Assembly (NCBI GenBank): GCA_021816775.1
Contig: JAKAXA010000013.1
Location: 1-64,000 of the forward strand
Origin: Pseudomonadota bacterium
GTDB lineage: Bacteria; Pseudomonadota; Gammaproteobacteria; Steroidobacterales; Steroidobacteraceae
Direction of reading: 5' to 3'
Length of the DNA stretch: 64,000 nucleotides
Position 1 is the first letter of the stretch; the number at the start of each line of letters is the position of its first letter. Both the position numbers and the translations under genes were made by a program. The notes below the pieces were generated by a model. It was not told the origin of the DNA and ran no database searches. It was given only the letters and a program-made list of their open reading frames with translations. Shown in pieces: positions 20,233 to 35,970 of this stretch.

Positions 20233-21270
20233 TCAGCCCGTTGAGCCCGCCGCAGCGCGCAACCGACGACCTTCGATCCATTGCCAGGAAACCAGGGATG
20301 GCACCCCGCACAGAACCTCGCGCAAGCGCTTGACCATGGAGACCGCGAGCGCGAGGTCGACGCCAACTCCGAGCATGTGCCCGAACAGTACGAAGCCGGC
20401 CTCCTGCACGCCAATCCCCGCCGGCACGATAAATGCCACATACCGTGCGGCCTGCGTGAGGCTTTCCAATGCGATAGCCGCCTCCATGCTGATTGGGTGA
20501 CCGAACAGCCGTAGTGCAAACCAGACTTCGAACGACGCGGAAAAAAAAGCCACTAGCTGCAGACCTCCGGCAATCGCCAGGGCCCAGATTCTGCACAGCG
20601 AGGCACGCAGTTCCGCATCGAGCGATTGGGCTCCCTCGGCCAGCAAGCGTTCACCGACGAACGGCCGCACCAGCGCATGCAATCGCTTGAACACCGATCC
20701 GTAGCGAAGCAGCACTGCTGTCAAGACCGGAACCGGCAAGCTCAGCAGGAACGCGATCAGCACTCGATGGTAGTCGTGACCGGTCGCTCGCAGATGCAGC
20801 AACAGCAGCAAACCCACTGCCGTGAAGACATACACCATGATCAGCGTCAGAAGAATCTCAACAATGACGGTGACTACCACCGGCGTTGACGCCAACCCGC
20901 GCCAGCGCATGAGGCGAACCGCAGCGACAGCGCCCCCAACACTTGCAACCGGCAGCAGCCGATCGATTGCATCGCGTACCGTTGTGACCCAATAGACGTA
21001 GCCGAAACTGGCACGAGATTGCGGATCATACGGAAGCAACAGCGCTCGCCATCCAATGGCGTACAGCAGGAAGTACCCGGCTCGGTACGGCACCAGCCAC
21101 AGCAGGGACCACCCTCCCCGGTGCCACGAATGCAGCAGCGTTGCGAAGTCTGCCCGTATGAACAGCCCAACGAATAGCGCCAGTCCCAGCAGGCCGCCGA
21201 TATATCCCGCCTTTTTTTTCAGACCCTCTCCCCGCTCAGTGCCGCAGCACCGTTTCTTGCGCAGACGCAA
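20233..21270 (-). CDS. hpnL: HpnL-like / lysylphosphatidylglycerol synthase TM-family protein
   Basis: A 345-residue polytopic membrane protein with a basic N-terminus and about eight hydrophobic segments. It has the UPF0104/LPG-synthase transmembrane-region pattern ('LLWLVPYRAGYFLLYAIGWRALL', 'LPVASVGGAVAAVRLMRWRG', 'VAFIVPAGIGVQEAGFVLFGHMLGV'). It lies 15 bp downstream of hpnI, the arrangement of hopanoid gene clusters, which supports the HpnL assignment. HpnL is thought to help in hopanoid processing or transport rather than in aminoacyl transfer. The ORF begins with TTG; no better start is clear. Confidence 0.8.
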   Translation of the reverse strand: MRLRKKRCCGTERGEGLKKKAGYIGGLLGLALFVGLFIRADFATLLHSWHRGGWSLLWLVPYRAGYFLLYAIGWRALLLPYDPQSRASFGYVYWVTTVRDAIDRLLPVASVGGAVAAVRLMRWRGLASTPVVVTVIVEILLTLIMVYVFTAVGLLLLLHLRATGHDYHRVLIAFLLSLPVPVLTAVLLRYGSVFKRLHALVRPFVGERLLAEGAQSLDAELRASLCRIWALAIAGGLQLVAFFSASFEVWFALRLFGHPISMEAAIALESLTQAARYVAFIVPAGIGVQEAGFVLFGHMLGVGVDLALAVSMVKRLREVLCGVPSLVSWQWIEGRRLRAAAGSTG

Positions 21271-21285
21271 CCAAGCATGCGCAGC

Positions 21286-22446
21286 TCAGGACAATCGGTG
21301 CATGACGCCCTTGCCGTCCACATCAAACTCGTTCCCCCTCCAGGTAACGCGGGAGGTGAACAGGCTCTTGCACCAGACCCAGCAAAGCAAAAAGTCCCGG
21401 AGCGGCACCAACCATAAATCCGCAAGCGCCCTCCGAGGCTCGCGCATGCGATGAAGGAAGTACAATGCAACACGGGTGCCAATTGCGACAGCAAACAGTA
21501 CCCATGCGATCGAGGTCAGGACATGCGCACCGACGGCAAGCGCAAAACCAAGCAGTGCCAAGGGAAGGCTGAAGCTGAGAAAGAGAAACAGGAAACATCG
21601 CGGCTGCAACACTTGCAGTGTCCGCATCCAGCGCACTTCATGGCGGATCAGCCTTGCAAGGCTCGGTTCATGATACTCAGCGCTCGGAACGTAATGCGAG
21701 AGTACGACGCGCTTGCCGAGCGCATGCACGCGTTCGCCCAACTGATGATCGTCGGCGAGGTGGTTCACGATGCTCTTGAGGCCGCCGATCGCATCGAGAG
21801 TCTCGCGGCAAATACACAGCGTCTGCCCGGAAACGTAGCCTTGGTGGCCGAACAACCACGCAAGCAGCACCGAGGGCATGTACCATTCATTGATGTACAT
21901 GGCCCCGAGCCTTGAGGATATCGATCGCGTCGGCACCGCGCGGTACAGGCACGTCACCAACCCTACTGACTCGTCTTGCAATGGTGCGGTGACGATACCG
22001 AGATATTCCGGGCACACGAATGCATCGCTGTCCGCCATGACCAAGACATCATGACGGACCTTCGAGACCATGTTGATCAGGTTGCTGACCTTGCAGTTGC
22101 TGCCATGCTGGGACGAGCTGACGACAAGATCAATCGGCAGTGAGGGGAATTCCTCCTGCAGCCGCCGCACCACGGCAAGTGCTGGATCGTTAGTGTCCTG
22201 CACACCGAATACGATCTGATATTCCGGGAAGTTCTGCCGGCAGAAGGTGCGCAGATTCTCGTACAGGCTCGGCTCCGGTCCGCACAGTGGCTTGAGCACC
22301 GATACTGCGCACTGTTGCCGTTCGCGGCCTAGTGGCTTGCGGCGCTGCCAGACCAACACGGCGATCACGGCAAGCACGCCGTAGGCCGATGCGCTGACCA
22401 GAAAGACAATCCCGATCGCAGCGATGAGCACGGCGAACTCCGACAT
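21286..22446 (-). CDS. hpnI: hopanoid glycosyltransferase HpnI
   Basis: A 386-residue family-2/21-type glycosyltransferase like ceramide glucosyltransferase. It has an N-terminal membrane helix, then 'CAVSVLKPLCGPEPSLYENLRTFCRQNFPEYQIVFGVQD', the nucleotide-sugar motif 'VLVMADSDAFV', and the acceptor-side 'LADDHQLGERV' and 'HEVRWMRT' (a (Q/R)xxRW-like motif). C-terminal membrane segments follow. In hopanoid producers HpnI adds N-acetylglucosamine to bacteriohopanetetrol at the inner membrane. It is followed by the hpnL-like gene; the other side-chain genes (hpnH, hpnG, hpnJ, hpnK) are not in this window. Confidence 0.88.
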   Translation of the reverse strand: MSEFAVLIAAIGIVFLVSASAYGVLAVIAVLVWQRRKPLGRERQQCAVSVLKPLCGPEPSLYENLRTFCRQNFPEYQIVFGVQDTNDPALAVVRRLQEEFPSLPIDLVVSSSQHGSNCKVSNLINMVSKVRHDVLVMADSDAFVCPEYLGIVTAPLQDESVGLVTCLYRAVPTRSISSRLGAMYINEWYMPSVLLAWLFGHQGYVSGQTLCICRETLDAIGGLKSIVNHLADDHQLGERVHALGKRVVLSHYVPSAEYHEPSLARLIRHEVRWMRTLQVLQPRCFLFLFLSFSLPLALLGFALAVGAHVLTSIAWVLFAVAIGTRVALYFLHRMREPRRALADLWLVPLRDFLLCWVWCKSLFTSRVTWRGNEFDVDGKGVMHRLS

Positions 22447-23465
22447 AGGCGTCTCTGGCGACAGCTTCTCGCTAGGAAATGCCTAGCTGCAGTTTGACAG
22501 CTTCGTCCTTATACGGCAACCGCGAAAGTGACCCGCCGATCGGTCCGTTGTTCAGATGCCACCCTGCGATGCACGGCCGAGCTACCGCGGTGAGCATGCT
22601 GGGGCACTGTCTTTCTCGCCGAGTTGACCTCAGTTTTTTGCGCAAATGCGACGCCCGGGTTGCCGGACGATGGCGGTTTTGGGAGACCTCGTGCTGGTGA
22701 GCCAGTTCGGGGGGATTGAACAGCGAACGTCTAATCGCGTTTCGGTGCGAAGCAACTCGATGCGGCCTCGAGGTGGGCTCGGGGCGGCGAGCGAACGGAA
22801 ATACCGAACTCGGTTGACCGCTGATCGGCAAGCACCGCGGGCTTCGTCCTACGTAAGGAATGCCCCGGAGAGCTCAACAGGGCGGCTCGTTGCCGATTGC
22901 GGCGCGGCATCGAGTGCTTGTGCCGAGCCGGACACCCCAACGGCCGCTCGATGCGGCGCTCGAATGAGTCCGAGCCCGCATCTCCGGAGGGATTCGGGTA
23001 CGTGCACTGCGCTGAAATGAGTTGCCGGCCGCCGAACGCGGCGGTGTTGCGGTGTGATTGCTCACGTTACTGACGACGTGCCCTGTCTGGGTAACTGTGT
23101 TCTGGGCCACACAATCGGTGGACGTTCACTCCGGTGTGGACTCCCCGGCTACGCATCGGGCGAAGCGAATATAGTTAATTAGATATTTCAATGACTTATA
23201 ATGCTTTTCTCGATCGCGTTTCCGCAATCACGGTGATGCGGGCCAGGGGCAATCCGGCACCCGGCCACCCGACCGGTGCGGCCCGCCCGCCGGCGGGCCG
23301 CACCCGTGATAGCGCCCTGATCATGCTCAAGGCCCCGCACCGGTACTACTCGAAGTCCTACCTGTGTCCCGAATCGCATGAACCGCAGGCCTGCCGTCCC
23401 GTAATCCGTGACGGCGTTCCGGCTAGACGCAGGATGCCTGCTTGACAATATCTGGCGTGAACCTC
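22447..23465. other. intergenic region between hpnI and pelA
   Basis: About 1 kb without a supported gene between two divergent transcription units. It holds a perfect -10 hexamer TATAAT at 23197-23202 in an AT-rich patch, with only a weak -35 (TTAATT, 23175-23180), and the structured element at 23227-23310. From 22447 to about 23150 I see only short overlapping ORFs and nothing recognisable. Confidence 0.5.
23227..23310 (+). ncRNA. possible structured leader of the pel operon
   Basis: A closing helix ATCACGG (23227-23233) with CCGTGAT (23304-23310) surrounds a GC-rich internal segment and a perfect 12-bp stem, GTGCGGCCCGCC/GGCGGGCCGCAC (23276-23303), with a CGCC loop. It lies 25 bp after the TATAAT box and about 150 bp before pelA. 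It does not match the conserved core of the c-di-GMP riboswitches I know. It could be a regulatory RNA, a REP-like repeat or a DNA element. Confidence 0.4.
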
Positions 23466-26400
23466 ATGTCCAGTCTCAAGTTGCGTCCATACCGGCCGAT
23501 GACCGCTCGTGGTGCGGCACGCGTTGCCGGGCAACCCGCCCATCCTGGGAACTGGACCTGCGCCGATCACAACGGCGAGCGACCGCAACCGATTGACCGG
23601 TGTGCCGTTGGCGAGCTGCGGCGCGTAGCACGGCGCCTTTTTCCTACGCGTATCCGACGCGCCATGATGCTCGTGGCAACGGTGGCACTGTCGGGGCTCG
23701 TACCGCTCTCGGCGGCCCGCGCCTCCGGGCTGCCGTCTGTGGCGATTTTCTACGGCGGTCATCCGCCGCTTAGCGTGTTGCAGGACTTCGACTGGGTGGT
23801 GGTGCAGCCGCATGCCTTGTCGAGGCCTGAGGCGCTCGCGCGAAGCCACACGACAGTCTTCGCGTATGTCTCACTCGGCGAGATCGCGTGGGATTCCGCC
23901 GCCGCCCGTGTCCTCCCCGCGCAATGCCGTCTCGGCAAGAACCGTGTGTGGAAGAGTTGGATTGTCGATCAGGGCAAGCCTGCATGCCGCGCGTTCTATC
24001 TCAATCACGTATTCCGGCCGCTTCAGGCGCACGGTTACCGCAACTTTTTCTTCGATACGCTTGACAGCTACCGTCTTACGCTCCATTCGCTCGACGAGCG
24101 CGCCGCGTACCGTGCCGGATTGATTGCACTGATTCAGGCCGTGCACCGGCGCGACCCCCAGGGACAGTTCATATTCAATCGCGGCTTCAAGCTCCTTGAT
24201 GCCCTCAAGGGCACGGGTGTGGTCGGGGTGGCCGCCGAGTCGCTCTACCGTGGATGGAGTCAACGATCCCGACAATACGTTGTTGTTGCTCCCACCGTTA
24301 CCCGCCAGTTGCTGGATCAACTCGAACGCGTGCGAAAGCTGGGACTCACGGCCATCGCAATCGACTACGTGCCGGCGGCCGAACGCTTACAAGCTGAGAG
24401 CTTGGCGCGACGCATCGAAGCCCACGGCATCGTGCCGTACGTCGGAAGTTCGGCGCTCGACATCGTCGGGGTGAGCACGATTACACCGCTGCCGCGTCGC
24501 GTACTCATGCTCTATGACGGCTCCGACAGTGTCATGAGCAACGATCTCAGCTGGTATGCGGCCATGCCGCTCAATCATCTCGGCTATGCCACGCGAGTCA
24601 TCGACGTCAGCCGCGAACAGCTCCCCTCTGGCCCGCTCACCGGTCAGGTTGCCGGAATCGTCACTTGGTTCAACTCTGATCACTTCCGCCACTCGGCAAC
24701 GACATGGCGATGGCTGCATACTCAGATGCGGGCGGGCGTGCCCGTGATGATCCTCGGCAACTTCGGGATGCCGATCCGGGCAAGCGGCCTTGCCCCGCTC
24801 GGCCTGCACCTCGGTAGGCAACCGCCTTCCGGTCTCTACAGGGCCCGCATCGCGCACGTCGATCGCCGGTATTTCGGGTTCGAGAGCCCGCCATTGCCGA
24901 GCGCACCGGACTTCAGTCCGATAAAGGCCGATCGACCGGCCGTGCCGCTCCTCGAAGTCAAGCTGGCGCAAAGCACGGAAGTCGCCGCTGCAATCACGCC
25001 CTGGGGCGGGTATGCGCTCGCTCCATTCGTCGTGCGCAGCCTGCCGCAGGGCGACCTTACGAGTGGACAGCTGCAGGCCGCATGGATTCTAAATCCCTTT
25101 CGCTTCTTTCGCGCGGCCCTGCATCTGCCCGACGCACCGGCCTACGACTACACCACGGCCAGCGGCCGACGGTTGCTCTTCGGACTCATCGATGGCGACG
25201 GGTTTTCCTCGCTGTCCTGGATCGGCGCCTATCGCGATCAACCGGGGGCCAAGGTGATTCTCGATCAGGTCCTCAAGCGCTTCCGCCTGCCTGTCACCGC
25301 ATCCGTAATCGCCTCGGAATTCGCCGCGCACGGCCTGTATCCGCCGGCCGAAGTCGCGAAGTTGCGCCCCATTGCGCGCGCCATATTCAGCCTGCCGTGG
25401 GTACAGATCGGCTCGCACACCTACTCGCATCCGTTCGACTGGCAGGCGCTCGAACGCGATCCCGCGCTGTCGGCGGGACTGCACATCAAGGCGCCGAGCA
25501 AGGGACTCATTGCGTACGTTCCGCGCGAGAACCTCAAATTCAATTACGGGGTCAATCTGCCGGTGCCCGGTTACCGCTTCAGCCCCGAGATGGAAATCAC
25601 CGGCTCCGCAGACATCATCAACCGCGAGCTTGCCCCACCCGCAAAGCGGGTGAGTGTCATCCAGTGGACGGGCGACACTGACCCTGATGCGCAAGTAGTT
25701 GGCATTGCCTATCACGACGGCCTCCAGAACATCAACGGCTATAACAGTACCATCACTCGGACGCGCCCCTCGTTGACCAACGTCGTGCCGCTGGGTGTGT
25801 GGAAGGGACCCTATTTCCAGGTCTACTCGCCCATTGCCGATGAGGATGAGTACACCCGCGGCTGGCAAGCGCCCTATTGCGGTTACAAGCGGGCCATCCA
25901 GACCATGGAGATGACGAATCGGCCGCGCCGCCTGACGGTCATGGAGATCTACTATCACTACTACTCGGGCACACGGGCCTGCGCGCTGAGACAGCTTGTG
26001 CAGGTCTACCGCTGGGCGCAGAAGCAGCCCGCCACCCCGGTGTTCGCCTCCACCTACAGCCGCATCGCAGTGGCTTTCGAATCCGCAGGTCTTGCAATCG
26101 ACGGCCGGTGCTTTCTAGCGCGTGGTTACGGTCGGGATCAGGAGCTGCGCATTCCGGTCTCGCTGGGTTATCCCGATCTCGCGGACTCCCGGAATGTCGC
26201 CGGTTTCGACGAGTTCAATGGGAGCCGCTACGTTCACCTCGGTCCGGGTGGAGAGGCGTCGTTGATTCTGCAGGCCGCGCCGCCGCGCGAGCCCTATCTT
26301 GAAAGCGCCAATGGCCTCATCGAGGTGCTGGAGCGAAAAGCCGGCACGCTCGAGATGAACTTGCGTGCGCGCGTCCCCCTGGCATTCACGCTCGCGAATG

Positions 26401-26522
26401 CGACGGGGTGCCGGACCCAGATCAACGGACGCATTCGCGACGGCGAGCTGACTGCCCGCGGCGCGCTGCGCTTTCAGCTGCGCGCCGAGCACGCGCGCAT
26501 CACCGTCAAGTGCCAAGGATGA
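23466..26522 (+). CDS. pelA: PelA, Pel polysaccharide hydrolase/deacetylase
   Basis: A periplasmic enzyme that trims and partly deacetylates the Pel polymer before export. A GH114-like hydrolase domain comes first ('VAIFYGGHPPLSVLQDFDWVVVQP', 'FAYVSLGE', 'NFFFDTLDSYRLT'), followed by a domain with 'VLMLYDGSDSVMSNDLSWYA' and a polysaccharide deacetylase domain with metal motifs 'GLIDGDGFSS' and 'GSHTYSHPFDW'. The export signal is 'RRLFPTRIRRAMMLVATVALSGLVPLSAARA'. The start is unresolved: an ATG at 23664 would give a family-typical 952 residues but cut the basic n-region, while TTG 23442 and ATGs 23466 and 23499 lie upstream. It is the first gene of the pel operon. Confidence 0.92.
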   Translation: MSSLKLRPYRPMTARGAARVAGQPAHPGNWTCADHNGERPQPIDRCAVGELRRVARRLFPTRIRRAMMLVATVALSGLVPLSAARASGLPSVAIFYGGHPPLSVLQDFDWVVVQPHALSRPEALARSHTTVFAYVSLGEIAWDSAAARVLPAQCRLGKNRVWKSWIVDQGKPACRAFYLNHVFRPLQAHGYRNFFFDTLDSYRLTLHSLDERAAYRAGLIALIQAVHRRDPQGQFIFNRGFKLLDALKGTGVVGVAAESLYRGWSQRSRQYVVVAPTVTRQLLDQLERVRKLGLTAIAIDYVPAAERLQAESLARRIEAHGIVPYVGSSALDIVGVSTITPLPRRVLMLYDGSDSVMSNDLSWYAAMPLNHLGYATRVIDVSREQLPSGPLTGQVAGIVTWFNSDHFRHSATTWRWLHTQMRAGVPVMILGNFGMPIRASGLAPLGLHLGRQPPSGLYRARIAHVDRRYFGFESPPLPSAPDFSPIKADRPAVPLLEVKLAQSTEVAAAITPWGGYALAPFVVRSLPQGDLTSGQLQAAWILNPFRFFRAALHLPDAPAYDYTTASGRRLLFGLIDGDGFSSLSWIGAYRDQPGAKVILDQVLKRFRLPVTASVIASEFAAHGLYPPAEVAKLRPIARAIFSLPWVQIGSHTYSHPFDWQALERDPALSAGLHIKAPSKGLIAYVPRENLKFNYGVNLPVPGYRFSPEMEITGSADIINRELAPPAKRVSVIQWTGDTDPDAQVVGIAYHDGLQNINGYNSTITRTRPSLTNVVPLGVWKGPYFQVYSPIADEDEYTRGWQAPYCGYKRAIQTMEMTNRPRRLTVMEIYYHYYSGTRACALRQLVQVYRWAQKQPATPVFASTYSRIAVAFESAGLAIDGRCFLARGYGRDQELRIPVSLGYPDLADSRNVAGFDEFNGSRYVHLGPGGEASLILQAAPPREPYLESANGLIEVLERKAGTLEMNLRARVPLAFTLANATGCRTQINGRIRDGELTARGALRFQLRAEHARITVKCQG

Positions 26523-26525
26523 GCG

Positions 26526-27344
26526 ATGGAACCGCTCGCGCTTCCAGAGCTGACGAGTCACACGCCCGGACACACAGATTCCGAGCGACGCCTGCGCTCG
26601 CGCGAACGGCCGTCGCCCGAGCGTTTTGCGCCATTGTGGCTGCGCGCGAGCCTGGTTCTCGCCACACTCGGCATACTGTGGCTCCTTTATCCCAGGTACT
26701 ACATTGAGAATAGCCTGCGCCGGCAGTCCGCACCGAATTCCGCGACGCTCGTCTATTTGCGGCTGATCGTGCTGGCGCAGCCGGCGGTCACGGAAACGCG
26801 TGTCCTTCTGGCAAAACAGGCCCTTGCCGCCGGCAATGTCGCACTGGCGCGCTATGCCCTCGCGCCGTGGGCAAAGCGTGGTCTTGAGGCGGTCCCACTG
26901 AAGATCGCCTTGCTGCGGCTGCGCCTGTTGCGCGTCGAACTCTACGCGCAGCGGCCGGCTTCCATGCGTCGTGCCGAGCTGACAGAGGTCTACACCCGCG
27001 CGCTCCTGCTGCTCGCGCCACGGATGGGAGCTTCTGAGCTCCTGAGACATGCCGGTGCCGTTGCCGCTCTAGGACAGTACCGAGTGGCGGCGCGTCTCTA
27101 CCGGCAAGTCATGGCGACGACCGGCGATCCAGCAGTGCGCCTCAAGGCCTTCTACGGTGGTATTGCGGCGCTGCGCGCCGCGGCACAGCCCTTCGACGCC
27201 CTCGCCTTTGCGCGCAGTGAGTTGGCCGCTGTGCCACCCAGCACCGGGCTTTGGAGGGAAATGACGCGGCTTGCGCTGATGGCGGATGCCCCCATGCTCG
27301 CTGCGAGCTATGCACGTCGGCTCATTGGGCTTGAGCCGCCATGA
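26526..27344 (+). CDS. pelB: PelB N-terminal part: membrane-anchored TPR protein
   Basis: A 272-residue protein with one transmembrane helix ('LWLRASLVLATLGILWLLYPRYYI', about residues 37-60) and helical repeats after it ('TETRVLLAKQALAAGNVALARYAL', 'ELLRHAGAVAALGQYRVAARLYRQV'). In canonical Pel systems PelB is one protein of about 1190 residues: an inner-membrane helix, TPRs, and a C-terminal outer-membrane barrel. Here this ORF supplies the membrane-anchored first TPR segment and overlaps the next ORF by 4 bp (ATGA). Combined length is about 1221 residues, so I read it as a split PelB. It starts 3 bp after pelA. Confidence 0.7.
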   Translation: MEPLALPELTSHTPGHTDSERRLRSRERPSPERFAPLWLRASLVLATLGILWLLYPRYYIENSLRRQSAPNSATLVYLRLIVLAQPAVTETRVLLAKQALAAGNVALARYALAPWAKRGLEAVPLKIALLRLRLLRVELYAQRPASMRRAELTEVYTRALLLLAPRMGASELLRHAGAVAALGQYRVAARLYRQVMATTGDPAVRLKAFYGGIAALRAAAQPFDALAFARSELAAVPPSTGLWREMTRLALMADAPMLAASYARRLIGLEPP

Positions 27345-30190
27345 GCGCACCGCGCACACAACCGTCCCGGAGGCTGCGCCTGTATGCGACACTGGCGCTC
27401 CTGGCGATCGGTCATTTCTCCGATCCTGCCTCTGCCGCCCCCCCGCCTGAGCGGCCCACCCGCTCCTTCCGGACTCGGGACTGGGATCTCGCCTGGCAGG
27501 CGTTCGTCGGCGCCGGCGAGGTCAACGATGCTTACGCGTTGTCGCAACGTGCCGTGCAGGCACGGCCGCACTCGCGTCTGTGGCTCGCTCGTCTGGCCCA
27601 GGCCGCCCGCTGGAGCAACCATCCGCAGGCTGCGCTCGCGGCGCTGTGTAGCCTGGCACTCGACCTGCATCAGACACACTACCTGCAACCGGCCCTCGAT
27701 CTTGCCATTGGTTTGGGCAAGGAGCACCGTGCCATCATCCTGTTGCGGGAACTCATCGACTTGCACCGCGCGACGGCAGCGCAGCGGCAGATGCTGAGCA
27801 GCCTCTATCTGGATGTCGGCGAGCCGGAACGGGCAATCCGCGAGCTGCAGCGGGAATTCGCCCGCCATCGCGTTCCTGCGCTGCTGTGGGAGCAGGCGGT
27901 GATCTACCACACGCTGGGCGATCCTGAGCGCGAGCTCGCAACCTTGCAGCGATACCGCAAGATCTTCGGATCAGGTCCGAAGGTCATGCTCGCCATCGCC
28001 ACGCGTGAGTACCTGCAGAACCGGTTGCCGAGCGCGTTGCATGCTCTGCTGGCCGCCGAACACCACGCCCGGCCGTCCGATAGGACCTATTGGCAGACGT
28101 TGAGCGCGCTCGCGTGGGAGCTCGGGCACTACCGAGTTGCGGCTCGCGCCGCGAACGTGCTGATTGGCACGGGTCACGCCGATTCGACCGCCTTTCTACG
28201 TGCCGTCTACGCGACGCAGTACCGCCATCCCAGACGAGCGTTCGCTATCGCCGAACGTGGTTGGAAGCAGACGCACGAGCGCGCCCTGTTTCTGTCCCTG
28301 CTCGGCATCGCCTCTTCACTGCATCCACCGACACCTTGGCTCGCTCGTGCTTTCGCGCTGCTCGGACCGGGACAGGCGGCGGCCCTTGCCGATGCGCCTT
28401 TTTATTGGACCAGCCTTGCCCAGTTGCGCTCCGGCGAGGGACGCGATCGCGCGGCACTTGCGGCGTACCGTCACGCTCTGCGCGAGAGCCCGGGAGACAA
28501 CAGCCTGCTGGCCGACTATCTGTGGCTGCTGATCGACCAACGCGACCTGAGGTCGCTTGCGCCGATGCTGCATCGCCTCGCCCGCCGAGCCGGCAAAGCG
28601 CCTGTCTTGTGGCCTCCCCTAGCCGCCGCCTACACCGCCGTCCACCGCCCCGAGCGTGCGCTGCCCTGGCTACAGGTCCAATGGGCCGCCCGCAAGAACG
28701 ATCCGCTGTGGCTGATCGGCTATGCCGATACGCTGCAGCAGGCGGATCGCTCCGAGGCCGCCTGGCGGCTACGCCGGCGGGCCTACGATCTGCTCATGCG
28801 CCGTATCACCCCGCCGCCCGATGCGGCGCAGCTCGAGCGGCGCGACATTGCACTGACGCGGCTCGCCGTCACGCTCTTTCCCGGCGATCCGGCGCGCCGT
28901 CTCATCGAGGGGCTCGCGCGCCATCCTGGTCAGCGGCAAGCCCGTCTCGCCGTGCTGTCCGGGATGCAGGTCGAGCAGGACTATGCCCTGGCACGCTGGT
29001 GGCGTCAGCGAGCCTTTCTGCACCGTGCCCCGCCGCCTTGGGCGCAGCTCGCCCAAGCCATGGCGCAAAACGACGGCGCGGCGATTGCCTCGCTGCTCGA
29101 GCGCCAGCGATCGCGTCTGCCGAGTCGGGACCAGGTCGCCGCGGCAACGGCTCTGGGATGGAATGCGCTGGGCGTCAGTCTCACGTATCGCGGGCTCGAG
29201 CGGGATCCGGGTGACGCCAGTCTGCATCGGGAATTTGAGGAGCTGGCCCTACCCCGGGCCGATAGTCTCGGCGCCGCGGCGGTCGCGACCGAAACAAGCG
29301 GCCTGCTCGACGAGGGTGTCAAGCTGCAGGCAAGCCATTGGCTCTCGAGGCGCAACGGACTTGACATTCGCATCGGCACCATTCAACAGCGCACCGTCGA
29401 CACCGCGCAGTTGCGCAGTCCCCCGTCCCTCAGCAGCTCCGCTGTGCTCACGTGGCGCCACGTCACAGCATTCGGTCGGCTCACATTCAACCTCGGCGCA
29501 GGCAGAGACCTCGCGACATGGCTGCGTGAGGGCGTACTGTGGCACAAGCGCTTGAGCGACGGTCTGCGCACTTCCCTCGGAGCTGTCGCCGGTGCTCAGC
29601 CGCTCGACACCGCGGCGCTCAGCGTCGCGGGGCTGGAAGATCGCCTTCAAGCCGCAGTGAGCAAGCAGATGACACCCCGCGTAGGCTTGCAGCTGCAGCT
29701 GCAGGCGGGCCGGCTTCGGGCGCAGGGCGGCGGTGCACTGGGTTCGGTGCAACGCTTCTCACTTGCCGCCAACTACCAGCTGTGGTTCTCGCCTCCGGAC
29801 TTCGCCCTGGATGCCTCGGTGAGCGGCGCGCACTATTCGCGCGCTGTGCACCTGCCCGCACAGTTGCAGTCCCTCGTGCCGAGGCAGGAGACGCCGAGTG
29901 TCGATTTCTTCGTTCCCGCAAGCTTCGTGCAAGCCTGCGGCGGCGGTCACTTCAATATGCGGTACGCCACCATCTTCACCTCGCAGGTTCGCCCGTTCGC
30001 GAGCGCGGACCTGTGTGCCAACACCGTCAGTGGTCAGGGCTATGACCTGACCGCCGGCATCGCCATGCCCGTGTTCGGCGCGGACCATCTGTCCCTGAGC
30101 CTGAATCTAGAAAACAACGTGGGCACGCACAGCGGACGCACGGCGGGTGTCATGCTGCGCTACCGCCACTACTTCACTCCACTGCAATGA
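27341..30190 (+). CDS. pelB: PelB C-terminal part: TPR and outer-membrane porin
   Basis: A 949-residue protein with its own signal peptide ('RLRLYATLALLAIGHFSDPASA'). It has a long TPR superhelix (about residues 45-620; for example 'LDVGEPERAIRELQREFARHRVPALLWEQAVIYHTLGDPERELATL') and a C-terminal region of amphipathic beta strands (about 650-949) ending 'VMLRYRHYFTPLQ', as expected of an outer-membrane barrel. It would guide Pel through the periplasm, bind PelA through the TPRs and export the polymer. The presence of its own signal peptide argues that the split from the preceding ORF is functional rather than a frameshift. Confidence 0.85.
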   Translation: MSAPRTQPSRRLRLYATLALLAIGHFSDPASAAPPPERPTRSFRTRDWDLAWQAFVGAGEVNDAYALSQRAVQARPHSRLWLARLAQAARWSNHPQAALAALCSLALDLHQTHYLQPALDLAIGLGKEHRAIILLRELIDLHRATAAQRQMLSSLYLDVGEPERAIRELQREFARHRVPALLWEQAVIYHTLGDPERELATLQRYRKIFGSGPKVMLAIATREYLQNRLPSALHALLAAEHHARPSDRTYWQTLSALAWELGHYRVAARAANVLIGTGHADSTAFLRAVYATQYRHPRRAFAIAERGWKQTHERALFLSLLGIASSLHPPTPWLARAFALLGPGQAAALADAPFYWTSLAQLRSGEGRDRAALAAYRHALRESPGDNSLLADYLWLLIDQRDLRSLAPMLHRLARRAGKAPVLWPPLAAAYTAVHRPERALPWLQVQWAARKNDPLWLIGYADTLQQADRSEAAWRLRRRAYDLLMRRITPPPDAAQLERRDIALTRLAVTLFPGDPARRLIEGLARHPGQRQARLAVLSGMQVEQDYALARWWRQRAFLHRAPPPWAQLAQAMAQNDGAAIASLLERQRSRLPSRDQVAAATALGWNALGVSLTYRGLERDPGDASLHREFEELALPRADSLGAAAVATETSGLLDEGVKLQASHWLSRRNGLDIRIGTIQQRTVDTAQLRSPPSLSSSAVLTWRHVTAFGRLTFNLGAGRDLATWLREGVLWHKRLSDGLRTSLGAVAGAQPLDTAALSVAGLEDRLQAAVSKQMTPRVGLQLQLQAGRLRAQGGGALGSVQRFSLAANYQLWFSPPDFALDASVSGAHYSRAVHLPAQLQSLVPRQETPSVDFFVPASFVQACGGGHFNMRYATIFTSQVRPFASADLCANTVSGQGYDLTAGIAMPVFGADHLSLSLNLENNVGTHSGRTAGVMLRYRHYFTPLQ

Positions 30191-30202: not shown

Positions 30203-30742
30203 ATGAGAATCTCAGCCAAATCGACAACCTGGATCTTCTTGATGTTTGCCGCAGCTGGCATCTCCGGCTGTGCAACCGTTCAGATCAACACCTCGGCCTC
30301 GCCGCACCCGGATAGGCAGGCCGCGTGGTGCGTGCTGACGCCGATCAACAACACATCGACGCCTTATGCCGGCGGACGTGTCCAGCAACAGCTGGCGGCG
30401 TTGCTTGGTGCGCGTGGCCTGAGCCACGTCCTGGTCGCGCCAGCCCCGGGCGGCGGCGGTCCGCTGCCCGTCGGCGAGGGTGCAAAGGATCAGAAACAGC
30501 AGCTCGCTTGGGCGCGTCACCACGGCGCGCGCTACGTGCTGCTCGGCAGCGTCGATGAGTGGCACTACAAGATTGGCCTGGACGGTCAACCGGCGGTCGG
30601 GTTCACACTGCGGCTGATGGACCTGCGCTCCGGCCAGACTCTCTGGAGCGGTGCGGCCTCGGCGAGCGGCGGCAGCCGCGAGGGGCTCGCGGTGCTCTCG
30701 GAACGGACGCTCGCCGGACTCCTGAAGCGTTTGCTGCGCTGA
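30203..30742 (+). CDS. pelC: PelC outer-membrane lipoprotein
   Basis: A 179-residue lipoprotein: signal sequence 'TTWIFLMFAAAGISGCATV' with lipobox ISGC, then a compact alpha/beta domain ('AAWCVLTPINNTSTPYAGGRVQQQLAALLGARGL', 'GARYVLLGSVDEWHYKIGLDGQPAVGFTLRLMDL'). PelC subunits form a ring at the inner face of the outer membrane around the PelB porin and help funnel the cationic polymer. It lies 12 bp after pelB and its length matches the family (about 172). Confidence 0.88.
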   Translation: MRISAKSTTWIFLMFAAAGISGCATVQINTSASPHPDRQAAWCVLTPINNTSTPYAGGRVQQQLAALLGARGLSHVLVAPAPGGGGPLPVGEGAKDQKQQLAWARHHGARYVLLGSVDEWHYKIGLDGQPAVGFTLRLMDLRSGQTLWSGAASASGGSREGLAVLSERTLAGLLKRLLR

Positions 30743-30761
30743 TCCGCAGGTGACGCCGAGC

Positions 30762-32084
30762 ATGGATAAGAGCACCGAACGTCGTTACGGCAACCTGGTC
30801 TGGGCGGAAGTCGCGCTGCTGCCGCTCGCAGGCCTGGCGCTAGCCGTGTGGCTTTTTTCCACCACCCCGTTCACCGTCTCGGCATTTCCGTGGCTCTGGC
30901 TGATCCCGCTCTTTCTTGGGCTGCGCTACGGCCTCTCCCCGGCCGCATTGTCCACCTTGATCCTGGCGGTGGCCGGCATCGCCGCACATCGACTCGGCAT
31001 CAGCGGCCAGGCGCCGCCGCTCATCCAGATGGCCGGGGGAGCGCTCGCGGCGCTCGGCGCGGGCCAATACCGCTCGCGCTGGCACGAGCAGCTGCGGGCA
31101 GGACAGGCGCGCACAGATTACACGGAGCAGCGGCTGGAATCCTTGACCCGCGCATTCTTCATCACCCGTCTGTCCCACGACCGGCTCGAAGAGGCTCTCA
31201 TCGCCCAACCCGTGACGTTGCGCGGTGCGCTGGAAGCGCTGCGCGAGCTCGGCACGCAGTTGCACGCCGGCATCTCCGCTGCGGGCGCCGAGGCGCTGCT
31301 GCAGCTGCTGGCGCAATATTGCCGGTTCGAGACTGCTGCGCTGCACCTGTACCGAAACGGCAGGCTCGCCGAAGCCCCGCTCGCGGCGCTTGGCCCACCC
31401 GCCACACTGGCGCGCACCGATCCTCTGCTCAAGTACGCCCTCGAGCACGAGCAGACCGCCTATCACAGTGTCGACCAACTCGTTGAGCTCGAGCAGGGCG
31501 GCAGTTACCGCGCAGTCTTCCCGTTGATCGACTCCGCCGGTGAGAAGCTCGGCGTGCTTGTGGTGCGCGATCTTCCGCTGCTTGCTCTCGTGGAGGAGAA
31601 TCTCACCGCGGCCTCGGCCATGCTGCAGTACTTCGCCGACGAAAGCTGGGCGGCCGCGCAGACAGCCGACCTGCGCGCACGCATTCCGTACTGTCCGCCT
31701 GCGTTCGCGCACGAATTGATCAAGCTGCAGCGCCTGCACGATCGCAGCGGCGTGCATTCCACGCTCGTGGTGGTGCGCGCCAGCACCGATGATGCACTGC
31801 CATCGGCGCTCCATGCGCTCTACGACGCGCGCCGCGGCCTGGACCTCTATTGGCGCGAACCTTTCGGCCCGATGGTGGCCGGCCTGCTCATCCTGCTGCC
31901 GCTCGCCGGACCCGCGACTACGCGCGGCTTTCTCGAGCGCATCGACGGTATCCTGCGGGCCCACCGAATGGAAGGAGGACTCGAGGCCGCTGGATTCAGC
32001 GTCGCGCAAGTGCCTGTCGATCATCGTGTGCCGCTCGCGCTCTTGCGTGAATGCGGTATCGAGGTCGACCAGCCTTCATCATAG
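30762..32084 (+). CDS. pelD: PelD c-di-GMP receptor
   Basis: A 440-residue inner-membrane protein: four N-terminal hydrophobic segments (about residues 10-95), a short coiled linker, a GAF domain (about 145-300) and a degenerate GGDEF domain. The inhibitory-site motif 'RGLD' (Arg358-Asp361 in 'DARRGLDLYW') corresponds to the RxxD that binds c-di-GMP in Pseudomonas PelD. There is no GGDEF active-site sequence, so it should sense rather than make c-di-GMP and switch on polymer synthesis by PelF. The ATG at 30762 is preferred to the GTG at 30750. Confidence 0.9.
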   Translation: MDKSTERRYGNLVWAEVALLPLAGLALAVWLFSTTPFTVSAFPWLWLIPLFLGLRYGLSPAALSTLILAVAGIAAHRLGISGQAPPLIQMAGGALAALGAGQYRSRWHEQLRAGQARTDYTEQRLESLTRAFFITRLSHDRLEEALIAQPVTLRGALEALRELGTQLHAGISAAGAEALLQLLAQYCRFETAALHLYRNGRLAEAPLAALGPPATLARTDPLLKYALEHEQTAYHSVDQLVELEQGGSYRAVFPLIDSAGEKLGVLVVRDLPLLALVEENLTAASAMLQYFADESWAAAQTADLRARIPYCPPAFAHELIKLQRLHDRSGVHSTLVVVRASTDDALPSALHALYDARRGLDLYWREPFGPMVAGLLILLPLAGPATTRGFLERIDGILRAHRMEGGLEAAGFSVAQVPVDHRVPLALLRECGIEVDQPSS

Positions 32085-32094
32085 GGATCGTGCG

Positions 32095-33093
32095 ATGAGC
32101 CCAGTGTTCATGATGCACCTCAGCCGCTGGTTAGAGCCGGCCTCGATGTCCGCGGCGGGTTATCTTGTATTTGCGTTGCTGGTCGCCAACGTTGTGCTCA
32201 GCACGCTCTGTGCAGTGCTGATGCACGGCGTGCTGCCACGCCGCCTGCGCAAGCGCAGGCTGCCCAGCGTGCTCACGCTCATTGCCCTAGGCAGCGTCCT
32301 GCCGCTGCTCGGCCCGCTTCTGGTTCTGCTCATCGGCCTCGTATACCCGCATTTGGAACAAGGCTCGCACCACCCGCCCCCGAAGCTCGTGCGCCAGCCG
32401 ACGTACACGACCGAAGTACGCGGCCACGTCAGCCACTTCGGCGCTGGTGGAGCACTCGCCCGCCTGCGCACCGCAACGCCCTACAGTCAGTTTGGCTCGC
32501 GCGCTCTGCTTGCCATAGCAACCCGCCGCAGCCGCGATACCACCGCCCTGCTCCGCGGAGCGTTGAGCCATCCCGATGAGACGCTCCGCCTGCTCGCGCA
32601 CAATCTGCTGGCACGCCGGGAGGAAACCATCGTCGCGCAGATGAGCCGTCTCGAAACGCACCGTCGCGCACACGGTCTCGGCAGCGCGCAAAGCACCTTG
32701 GATCTCGCCGAGCTCCATCTTGAGTTCGTCTATCTTGGCATCGCCAGCGGCGGCCTGCGGCAGATGCACCTCGACGCCGCGCAACAGCTCATCGCTGCAA
32801 TCGGCGAACCGGCCGTGGACGCCGCCTGGCGTAATCGCCTACTGCTTACGCGCGCGCGGCTCAATCAGCAGCGCGAATCCGAAGCGCACGAGTCAGATGT
32901 GGCGCGCGACTACGAACTGGCACGCGAGGCGGGCGCCGCCCCAGCGCGTGCACTGCCGTGGTTGCTCGAGCGCGCATGGCGAGCACGCAATTACTCGCGC
33001 CTGCGAGACCTGCTCGAGCGCAACCCGTTGTATCGGCACATTCCGCTCATCGGGCCGGTGGCACGGCTGTGGGGGCTTGCGATCGATGCCTGA
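32095..33093 (+). CDS. pelE: PelE inner-membrane protein
   Basis: A 332-residue protein with two N-terminal membrane segments ('GYLVFALLVANVVLSTLCAVLM' and 'LTLIALGSVLPLLGPLLVLLIGLVYP') and a cytoplasmic helical-repeat region ('DTTALLRGALSHPDETLRLLAHNLLARREE', 'ARALPWLLERAWRARNYSRLRDLLERNP'). PelE joins PelD, PelF and PelG in the Pel synthase complex. The ATG at 32095, 10 bp after pelD, is chosen; the longer ORF in the track overlaps pelD antifunctionally. Length equals the family norm (about 329). The end overlaps pelF by 8 bp. Confidence 0.88.
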   Translation: MSPVFMMHLSRWLEPASMSAAGYLVFALLVANVVLSTLCAVLMHGVLPRRLRKRRLPSVLTLIALGSVLPLLGPLLVLLIGLVYPHLEQGSHHPPPKLVRQPTYTTEVRGHVSHFGAGGALARLRTATPYSQFGSRALLAIATRRSRDTTALLRGALSHPDETLRLLAHNLLARREETIVAQMSRLETHRRAHGLGSAQSTLDLAELHLEFVYLGIASGGLRQMHLDAAQQLIAAIGEPAVDAAWRNRLLLTRARLNQQRESEAHESDVARDYELAREAGAAPARALPWLLERAWRARNYSRLRDLLERNPLYRHIPLIGPVARLWGLAIDA

Positions 33094-34594
33094 CACTCAC
33101 ACGACCGAATGCGACATCGCATTGCTGCTCGAAGGGACCTATCCGTACGTCAAGGGCGGCGTATCGAGCTGGGTCCATCAGCTGGTCACGCAGCTGCCAA
33201 ACTGGCGCTTCGCGGCCGTCTTCCTCGGCTCGCAGGCCAAGGACTACGGCGGCGTGCAATACCGATTGCCGGACAATGTCACGGCACTGCAGAGGCTCTA
33301 CCTGTTCGAGGAACGCGAACACCGGCGGGTCAAACCACCCCGTCTGCCGGCGGATACGACGGCCCTCTATGCCCGCCTGCACGATTCGTTGCGCGCGGGC
33401 AAAGCCGAGGTTCTCGACTTCAGCGCTCATCTCGCAGCCGGCGATCCGCTCAACGAGGACGCGTTCCTCTATGGGGAGCCGGCGTGGCACTACATCACCG
33501 CCGCCTATGAGGCCAACGCCACGGAGCCGTCATTCCTCGACTACTTCTGGACCGTGCGCAATTTGCATCGCCCCATCTGGGCGCTGGCCCGCGCGGCGCG
33601 CGAACTGCCGCGGGCACGGCTGTTTCTCAGCCCCTCGACCGGTTACGCCGGGCTGCTGGGCGTGCTCGGCGCGCAGGCCCAGCGACGCCCCTTCGTGCTG
33701 ATGGAACACGGCATCTACACCAAGGAGCGGCGCGTCGATCTGATGAACGCCGATTGGATCAACGACGCACGCAGCCCGCTGCAGTATGACCCGACGGAAG
33801 TCAGTCATCTGCGCGAGATGTGGATCCGCTTTTTCGAAACCCTTGGCGGCATGGCCTACCGCCGCGCCGATCCCATCATCAGCCTGTTCGAAACCGCTCG
33901 CCAGCAGCAGATCCACGACGGCGCGGACCCCGCGCGCACTCGAATCATCCCCAACGGCGTGGACGTCGAGCGCCTCGCCCGCCTGCGCCGCCCGAGCGGC
34001 ACCGCGCCGCCGCCGGTCATTTGTCTGCTCGGCCGAGTCGTGCGGATCAAGGACATCAAGACCTTCATCCGCGCCGCTCATGCCTTGCGACAACGGCTGC
34101 CCGACGCACAGGCCTGGATCGTCGGCCCTGAAGACGAGGATCTAGAGTACAGCCGCGAATGCCACGAGCTCGCGCAGGCCTTGGGACTGGGGGAGTCACT
34201 GCGTTTCTTCGGCTTCAGGCGCATCGAGGAGATCCTGCCCGAGGTCGGCGTGCTCGTCCTGAGCTCGATCAGCGAAGGGCTGCCCCTAGCGATCCTAGAA
34301 GGATTTGCCGCCGGCCTGCCCTGCGTGACCACCGACGTCGGCGCATGCTCGGAACTGGTGTATGGCCGTGGCGATGATGACCGCAGCCTGGGTGCTGCCG
34401 GCTCCGTGGTCGGCCTTGCCAACCACGAGGCGCTGGCCGACGCCTGCGCCGCGCTGCTGTCGGACCGCATCGCCTACGGTCGGGCCGCGCAGACCGCGAT
34501 CCGGCGGGTGGAAGCCTATTACGACCAGCGGCAGATGATCGATGCCTTCGATCGACTGTTCGCCGAGCGGGTTGGCGACGAGGGCTCACTCTGA
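33086..34594 (+). CDS. pelF: PelF glycosyltransferase
   Basis: A 502-residue cytosolic GT4-type glycosyltransferase that builds the Pel chain from nucleotide sugar. It starts 'DIALLLEGTYPYVKGGVSSWVHQLV', the family signature. The acceptor domain contains 'LMEHGIYTKERRVDL'; the nucleotide-binding half has 'IPNGVDVERLARL', 'LLGRVVRIKDIKTFI', the E(x7)E-like 'SSISEGLPLAILEGFAAG', and 'VTTDVGACSELVYG'. The ATG at 33086 overlaps the end of pelE, and its stop overlaps pelG by one base (TGATG), indicating tight coupling. No membrane segment is present, consistent with recruitment by PelD. Confidence 0.93.
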   Translation: MPDTHTTECDIALLLEGTYPYVKGGVSSWVHQLVTQLPNWRFAAVFLGSQAKDYGGVQYRLPDNVTALQRLYLFEEREHRRVKPPRLPADTTALYARLHDSLRAGKAEVLDFSAHLAAGDPLNEDAFLYGEPAWHYITAAYEANATEPSFLDYFWTVRNLHRPIWALARAARELPRARLFLSPSTGYAGLLGVLGAQAQRRPFVLMEHGIYTKERRVDLMNADWINDARSPLQYDPTEVSHLREMWIRFFETLGGMAYRRADPIISLFETARQQQIHDGADPARTRIIPNGVDVERLARLRRPSGTAPPPVICLLGRVVRIKDIKTFIRAAHALRQRLPDAQAWIVGPEDEDLEYSRECHELAQALGLGESLRFFGFRRIEEILPEVGVLVLSSISEGLPLAILEGFAAGLPCVTTDVGACSELVYGRGDDDRSLGAAGSVVGLANHEALADACAALLSDRIAYGRAAQTAIRRVEAYYDQRQMIDAFDRLFAERVGDEGSL

Positions 34595-35970
34595 TGGCCG
34601 GCATCGGCTTCGAACTGCGCCGCTTGAGCCGCAGCAAGAGCTATCTGGGTCTGCTGCGCGCCTACCTTTACGCTGGCGTCATCGGATCGGGACCGTGGGT
34701 GCTGTCGATCCTGGCGATCCTGATACTCGGGGTGATGAGTCTCGGCGTCGTGCTGCCGGCCAGCAAGATCACCGACTTCGAGACCAGCGTGACCTGGCTG
34801 ATCGCCCTCAGCCTCATCTACTCCGGGGGCACGCAACTGCTCTACACGCGTTACGTCGCCGACCGGCTGTTCGAAGGCCAGTCCGCACGGGTGTTACCGA
34901 ACCTGCTCGGCATCCTGGTGATCACCGGACTGCCGTTGCTGCTCGTCTCGGTGCCACTCGCGCTGTGGCTGCTTCCGGATTCGAGCCCGGCGTACCGCAT
35001 GCTGATGATCGTTAGCCTTAACCTACTCAACACGGTGTGGGTGCTCACGGTCCTCCTTTCCGGTCTGAAGCAGTACCGATCGCTGCTGGTGCTTTACTTC
35101 CTCGGCTACGGCGGCTCGGTCGCATTGGGGTTCGCGCTCGGCAAAGCAGGGCTCGGCATGGAGGGCCTATTGCTCGGTTTCGCCTGCGGCCAGGCGGTCA
35201 TCATCACCGGCTCGCTCGCCCTGGTGTGGCGAGAGTACCCGCCCTCAGGGCTGATCGAATTCGATTTCCTGCGCGCCGGCCGAGTGCATCTGTGGCTGCT
35301 GCCGATCGGCCTGCTCTTCAACGCCGGCATCTGGGCCGACAAGTTCCTATTCTGGCTCTCCTCGGGCACCGGTCAGCGCGTCATCGGTGATCTGCACGCA
35401 TCGGCGGTCTACGACACGCCGATCTTTCTCGCCTATTTCACGCTGATTCCCGGCATGGCCGTATTCCTGCTGCGCATGGAAGTCGATTTCGTGCGCGCCT
35501 ACGACCGCTACTACAGCGCAGTGCGCGAGGGGGGAGCGCTGAGCGCCATTCGTGCCTACCGCGAGGAGATGGTCCTCACCGCCCGCGAGGGCATCTACGA
35601 CATCATCAAGATTCAAGGCTTCACACTGCTCGTGCTCAGCGCGCTCGGTCCGTCGCTGCTTGCGTTCTTCCGCATTCCGACCCTGTATTTCCCTCTGCTC
35701 GCCATTGATTCGGTGGGTGTCGGACTGCAATTGCTGGTCATGGCCGGGCTGAACATCCTGTTCTATCTCGACCGCCTGCGGATCGCCGCTGCCGTCAGCG
35801 CCACGATGCTGCTCGCCAATCTCGCCTTCAGTTACCTGAGCCTGATGTTAGGTCCGTTCTTCTATGGATACGGCTTCGTCCTGGCCATGCTATTGACCAG
35901 TCTGTTCGTTCTCACCGTCACCGACGGCGCGCTGCACAAGTTGAACTACACCACGTTCATGCTCGGCTGA
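34594..35970 (+). CDS. pelG: PelG polysaccharide transporter
   Basis: A 458-residue protein with about 12 transmembrane helices, related to Wzx-type flippases. It starts 'MAGIGFELRRLSRSKSYLGLLRAYLYAGVIGSGPW', the conserved PelG N-terminus, and contains 'FNAGIWADKFLFWLSSGTGQ' and 'RMEVDFVRAYDRYYSAVREG'. It would move the growing polymer across the inner membrane together with PelD, PelE and PelF. It is the last gene of the operon; no clear rho-independent terminator follows. Confidence 0.92.
   Translation: MAGIGFELRRLSRSKSYLGLLRAYLYAGVIGSGPWVLSILAILILGVMSLGVVLPASKITDFETSVTWLIALSLIYSGGTQLLYTRYVADRLFEGQSARVLPNLLGILVITGLPLLLVSVPLALWLLPDSSPAYRMLMIVSLNLLNTVWVLTVLLSGLKQYRSLLVLYFLGYGGSVALGFALGKAGLGMEGLLLGFACGQAVIITGSLALVWREYPPSGLIEFDFLRAGRVHLWLLPIGLLFNAGIWADKFLFWLSSGTGQRVIGDLHASAVYDTPIFLAYFTLIPGMAVFLLRMEVDFVRAYDRYYSAVREGGALSAIRAYREEMVLTAREGIYDIIKIQGFTLLVLSALGPSLLAFFRIPTLYFPLLAIDSVGVGLQLLVMAGLNILFYLDRLRIAAAVSATMLLANLAFSYLSLMLGPFFYGYGFVLAMLLTSLFVLTVTDGALHKLNYTTFMLG

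Follow-up and report, generated by a model that had tools for sequence, protein, structure and literature searches.

A pelB split into two overlapping genes within a complete pel operon, and the recurrence of the split at one position

The pel locus

The window analyzed here is a stretch of 64,000 nt from a Steroidobacteraceae draft genome (GenBank assembly GCA_021816775.1, contig JAKAXA010000013.1, positions 1 to 64,000). It includes a complete pelABCDEFG operon in which two ORFs, both beginning with ATG, stand between pelA and pelC in the place of pelB (Table 1). Their products, of 272 and 949 aa, are referred to as BN and BC. A reading made from the sequence alone had proposed that PelB is encoded here as two proteins overlapping by ATGA, and both ORFs and the overlap are present as it described. 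The true start of pelA is probably downstream of the first possible one listed, near a signal peptide (MMLVATVALSG). BC is the sole match to the PelB barrel family PF24604 in the 3.94 Mb draft genome. Upstream of the operon, on the opposite strand, are the hopanoid genes hpnL and hpnI (20233–22446, minus strand). A search of a plasmid collection found no place covering the whole of BC at 80% or more, by the program's count.

Table 1. Genes and features of the pel operon, in window coordinates.
Feature	Position	Strand	Basis
pelA (glycoside hydrolase/deacetylase)	23442..26522	+	PF03537 GH114 2.1e-10; matches pelA of other loci
pelB-N (BN), inner-membrane anchor and ~5 TPRs, 272 aa	26526..27344	+	PelB HMM 8–290, 6e-23; AF2 mean pLDDT 90.3, 13 helices
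BN transmembrane helix (residues 37–54), followed by conserved LLYPR motif	26634..26687	+	sequence and AF2 model
ATGA overlap (BC start and BN stop)	27341..27344	+	
pelB-C (BC), signal peptide, 13 TPRs, alpha-rich region and beta-barrel, 949 aa	27341..30190	+	PF13429 2.1e-54; PF24604 8.5e-47; PDB 9h80 PelB by sequence and fold
BC Sec signal peptide (~residues 1–33, ...DPASA/A, AxA-type)	27341..27439	+	read from sequence; low pLDDT 24–41
BC stretch aligned to P. aeruginosa PelB 332–436 (PelA-binding TPRs)	27608..27922	+	alignment; PelA binding per PMC12022489, PMC12141448
BC 16-strand outer-membrane barrel	29255..30172	+	PF24604 match; 16 strands in AF2 model
pelC lipoprotein	30203..30742	+	position; phmmer matches to pelC in other loci; LpoB-like Pfam match
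pelD	30750..32084	+	PF16963 1.8e-19
pelE (start picked by eye)	32095..33093	+	position; matches in other loci
pelF glycosyltransferase (start picked by eye)	33086..34594	+	NF038011 5.6e-189
pelG	34594..35970	+	PF16933 2e-134

Identity and structure of the two proteins

Against an HMM built from 16 one-piece PelBs, BN corresponds to positions 8–290 and BC to positions 290–1210 (E = 5.5e-139), the first ending exactly where the second begins. BN also matches the N-termini of one-piece PelBs in phmmer (best 1.5e-12), and shares with them a transmembrane helix and the LxYPR motif after it. Other searches say less about it: Pfam gives almost no signal, just a weak TPR match; PDB sequences include no noteworthy match; and a fold search returned generic TPR proteins, none at E < 0.001. 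Taken by themselves, the Pfam and PDB results would suit a PelB that has lost its N-terminal part, with the gene of an unrelated TPR protein placed in front of it, but the HMM and phmmer matches, which take in the helix and the motif, rule this reading out as highly improbable.

The AF2 model of BN consists of a hydrophobic helix (residues 37–54) and a TPR solenoid whose helices reach a pLDDT of about 97. No AxA cleavage motif was seen at the hydrophobic helix, which is placed like the N-terminal helix that stays uncleaved in one-piece PelB (PMC12141448). Judging non-cleavage by eye, BN thus has the N-terminal inner-membrane helix of a PelB.

BC has the TPR_15 and PelB C-terminal barrel matches listed in Table 1, and aligns to residues 297–1065 of P. 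aeruginosa PelB. Its AF2 model (mean pLDDT 88.4) has 16 strands, forming the C-terminal barrel of a PelB, and the best PDB match to this model is the cryo-EM structure of PelB itself (9h80; E 1.6e-17, TM 0.80 over the target). The signal peptide, like all of those discussed here, was judged by eye; after its removal the protein would begin with some 10 residues that are disordered in the model, ahead of the first TPR. The regions that align to the PelA- and PelC-binding parts of P. aeruginosa PelB all fall on BC.

The long periplasmic series of TPRs typical of PelB is present as well, with about five in BN and 13 in BC. What is missing is a single chain linking the two membranes, since there are two ORFs and the second has a signal peptide of its own; the pair is therefore classed as a split variant rather than as a canonical PelB. 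The sequence-only reading had taken the first product for a membrane-anchored TPR protein and the second for a TPR-porin with its own signal peptide, with the split separating inner- from outer-membrane parts; the homologies support this description.

Conservation of the split

Four more members of the genus (genomes G023, G349, G024, and G020) have the same BN/BC pair with the same junction. Values of dN/dS are about 0.32–0.36 for BN and 0.23–0.29 for BC, so that both evolve under purifying selection. Correcting the reading frame would not merge the two ORFs into one, as the genus keeps BN, the signal peptide, and BC around one junction. Broken pelB genes do occur among the loci surveyed below: in L104, L166, and L070 the frames overlap with no signal peptide at the break, probably because of assembly frameshifts, with the breaks of L104 and L166 at other positions than the one described here and that of L070 inside BC. 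An origin of the present split in a similar sequencing or assembly frameshift, or in decay of a one-piece pelB to a pseudogene, is nevertheless ruled out for practical purposes by a junction that five genomes of this genus share with one another and with distant lineages, named strains included, by the signal peptide exactly at the junction, and by the selection on both ORFs.

A programmed frameshift at the ATGA, yielding a fused PelB from both ORFs, would be compatible with the coordinates, as a -1 shift at the overlap leads into the BC frame. It is very unlikely all the same. No slippery heptamer is seen just upstream of the overlap (GAGCCGCCATGA), and the fused product would carry in mid-chain a signal peptide that is kept in all split relatives.

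Recurrence across pel loci

PF24604 searches of about 1,160 genomes, together with one PelF scan of GTDB species genomes, gave about 110 pel loci; the scan contributed the best 80 loci, those nearest to the PelF of the window, and proportions in the survey are therefore not frequencies. Among the 93 loci that could be scored, PelB is in one piece in 65, in two pieces in 25, and in three pieces in three. Two further two-piece loci on short contigs bring the number of split genomes to 30. In a class-wide sample, 8 of 15 scorable operons are split (counting that of the window); in a phylum-wide sample nearly all others are one-piece. Two-piece PelBs are found in the genus of the window, in Rhodanobacteraceae and Moraxellaceae MAGs, in Curvibacter, Rhodoferax, and other Comamonadaceae, in Alcanivorax sp. 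DG881 and Alloalcanivorax marinus, and in Geobacteraceae including Trichlorobacter thiogenes ATCC BAA-34, among others.

The arrangement is nearly constant. Every one of the 30 split genomes has the end of the first piece at HMM positions 283–297 and a signal peptide on the second protein. The two genes are always adjacent and mostly overlapping, with an exact 4-nt overlap of the form [AGT]TGA in 28 of the 30; in the exceptions, the second start is 16 nt downstream (L115) or 1 nt (L155). In Rhodoferax-type operons a SPOR (peptidoglycan-binding) domain directly follows the BC signal peptide. It scores 27.9 bits in L100 (L100:3684-4220), against a cut-off of 21, and near 19 in L102, L109, and L119; this one above-threshold match hints that the joint lies near the cell wall. 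The survey also included a minimal pel-like cluster (L091, G1118:C38) with a short PelB of 658 aa that has a signal-like N-terminus; its PelA match is a 338-aa ORF only, and PelC and PelE were not found in it.

In the three-piece loci (L029 and L030, from genomes G193 and G213, and L073) PelB is cut twice. BN is followed by a TPR protein of about 550 aa and this by a barrel protein of 501–504 aa, with signal peptides on both of these. The junction between them reads GTGA, GTGA, and ATGA, respectively, and the second break is at HMM positions 734–821. HMM position 735 corresponds to about residue 726 of P. aeruginosa PelB, which is approximately where its TPRs end (PMC12022489), which places the second cut where the TPR series stops. 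The genomes with L029 and L030 belong to the genus of the window, yet their pel operon is distant from that of the window (PelF about 44% identical); the genus therefore has two kinds of Pel exporter. PelE, expected between pelD and pelF, was undetected by phmmer in L029, L030, and L080, and in L073 gave a weak match (3.6e-6) in one phmmer comparison and none in another; in these four loci it is either absent or highly diverged.

Position of the cut

The BN model ends on a complete helix pair (240–252/256–266) and the BC model begins with one (45–57/61–74), so the cut falls between two TPR units. HMM positions 286–290 correspond to residues 276–280 of the L082 PelB, with an offset of +4 in P. 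aeruginosa PelB, placing the cut at about 280–284, near residue 282, in the numbering of the latter. The solved fragment 5wft, described as TPRs 8–11 (PMC12022489), begins some 35 residues after it. By the published numbering the cut would thus be at about TPR 6/7, and since PelA requires TPRs 9–14 (PMC12022489), the PelA-binding part, like the PelC-binding one, would remain with the barrel. The kink "after the eighth TPR" in an AF3 model (PMC12022489) was considered as a counterpart of the cut; it is nearby, yet at a different place.

This joint is also the main site of insertions in one-piece PelBs. At HMM positions of about 281–296, 46 of the 65 (71%) have at least 15 extra residues, with a mean of 50; the other main site, at about 781–796, where more than 40% of the 65 have at least 15, is the second joint, the one cut in the three-piece PelBs. 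The linkers at the joint are long and variable (e.g., in L088, L135, L157, and L172), and a short motif of the Y/M-x-DG type is common to those of Cupriavidus, Paraburkholderia, and Acidovorax relatives. By eye, the linkers of L113, L120, L133, and L138 are suggestive of fossil signal peptides. These are not claimed here, because a crude rule flagged 18 of the 65, including Ala/Pro-rich linkers elsewhere, and missed L120 and L138.

Evolutionary history

On trees of PelA, PelC, PelD, PelF, and PelG (FastTree and IQ-TREE), the one-piece and split states have switched at least four times, and the split state is stable within clades. A single split clade on the operon tree was rejected by an AU test (p = 3e-46). 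Because the trees are unrooted, the pattern could result either from repeated fission or from an ancestral split followed by repeated fusion, and both histories agree with the long, variable linkers seen in one-piece PelBs of Betaproteobacteria. An ancestral split would account for the constancy of the joint without any special property of the joint itself. A calculation of the chance clustering of breakpoints presumes independent breaks; it was given no weight, because the breaks would not be independent if an ancestral split had been followed by fusions.

Possible arrangement of the split exporter

In the model for P. aeruginosa, an uncleaved N-terminal helix and a TPR scaffold more than 20 nm long bridge both membranes (PMC12141448). 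When residues 762–1193 of this PelB are given a cleavable signal peptide from another protein, the construct is delivered to the outer membrane and it binds PelC (PMC12141448), so the outer-membrane part can be exported alone. For the split form, we consider it likely that PelB is genuinely two proteins, with BN and BC as inner- and outer-membrane parts. BN would be anchored in the inner membrane by its uncleaved helix, and its TPRs, about the first five of the series, would lie on the periplasmic side, close to the PelDEFG synthase. BC would use a cleavable signal peptide of its own for export and sit in the outer membrane; the PelA-binding TPRs, the segment that contacts the PelC ring, and the barrel would all be on this protein. 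With start and stop codons overlapping by 4 nt, translation of the two is most likely coupled, which would give near-equal amounts. The last TPR of BN may then dock on the first of BC, rebuilding the polymer track from two non-covalently joined pieces.

Alternatively, both proteins could be needed without ever forming one track, with the polymer crossing the gap between them unaided. BN would then be an inner-membrane receiver of nascent polymer, working with PelDEFG, and BC would act with PelA and PelC at the outer membrane. This has a reasonable, if lesser than even, chance of being correct. The joint lies neatly between TPRs and tolerates insertions better than any other point of one-piece PelB; the PelA-binding, PelC-binding, and barrel regions would all stay on BC; the SPOR domain of the Rhodoferax-type proteins could anchor BC to the cell wall instead of to BN; and the disordered residues at the mature N-terminus of BC, like the long one-piece linkers, would also fit loosely tethered or independent halves. 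Against it, the two genes always lie next to each other and mostly overlap, and the TPR pattern seen in one-piece PelB continues in the helices flanking the joint.

More broadly, and as a tentative proposal, Pel conduits in general may be modular, with two fixed joints (at about TPR 6/7 and at the border of the TPRs and the alpha-rich region, in P. aeruginosa numbering), the genes having been repeatedly cut or fused exactly there to give up to three separately exported proteins; the first joint, going by the SPOR domain, would be at the cell-wall layer. If this were so, Pel could be exported without a covalent bridge from inner to outer membrane. In recent models of the export process, PelB is one chain that connects the two membranes. 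A conserved and recurrent natural split marks where that chain can break; it also raises the prospect that the bridge is non-covalent, or that none is needed. The natural two- and three-protein systems would allow the polymer-receiving, PelA-binding, and pore-forming parts to be tested separately. Many pel operons may also be annotated as lacking PelB or as having a truncated one.

Comparison with known systems

Fission of pelB as such is already known. The sequence-only reading, which had suggested surveying pel operons for the same split, implied that it was rare; this was mistaken: split PelBs are common, and the legend of Figure 5 of Bundalovic-Torma (2020; PMC7112194) already mentions "pelB fission" for aquatic thermophilic species. 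As here, that phrase denotes a pelB split into more than one gene; the legend, unlike the present survey, gives no position, signal peptide, or spread. No other descriptions of split PelB or PelB homologs were found in the searchable literature, which mostly excluded subscription journals, and within it there appears to be no account of the fixed joint, of the signal peptide combined with a 4-nt overlap, of how widely the split is spread, or of the three-piece form.

P. aeruginosa PelB (9h80, 5wft; PMC12141448, PMC12022489) has the same operon neighbors and the same order of domains, from transmembrane helix through TPRs and alpha-rich region to 16-strand barrel. It is a single chain of 1193 aa, whereas here the chain is cut at the equivalent of about residue 282–284 and the second piece has a cleavable signal peptide in addition. 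The three-piece PelBs may be likened, as a working analogy, to AlgK and AlgE of the alginate system, where the TPR scaffold and the outer-membrane barrel are likewise on separate exported proteins (PMC12022489 and general knowledge), although these belong to different families and have no inner-membrane TPR anchor of the BN kind. BcsC (cellulose), the next exopolysaccharide-exporter fold match to BC, and PgaA (PNAG) resemble PelB in having a TPR solenoid followed by an outer-membrane barrel; in contrast to the split PelB, each is one chain and needs no PelC-type ring (PMC12141448).
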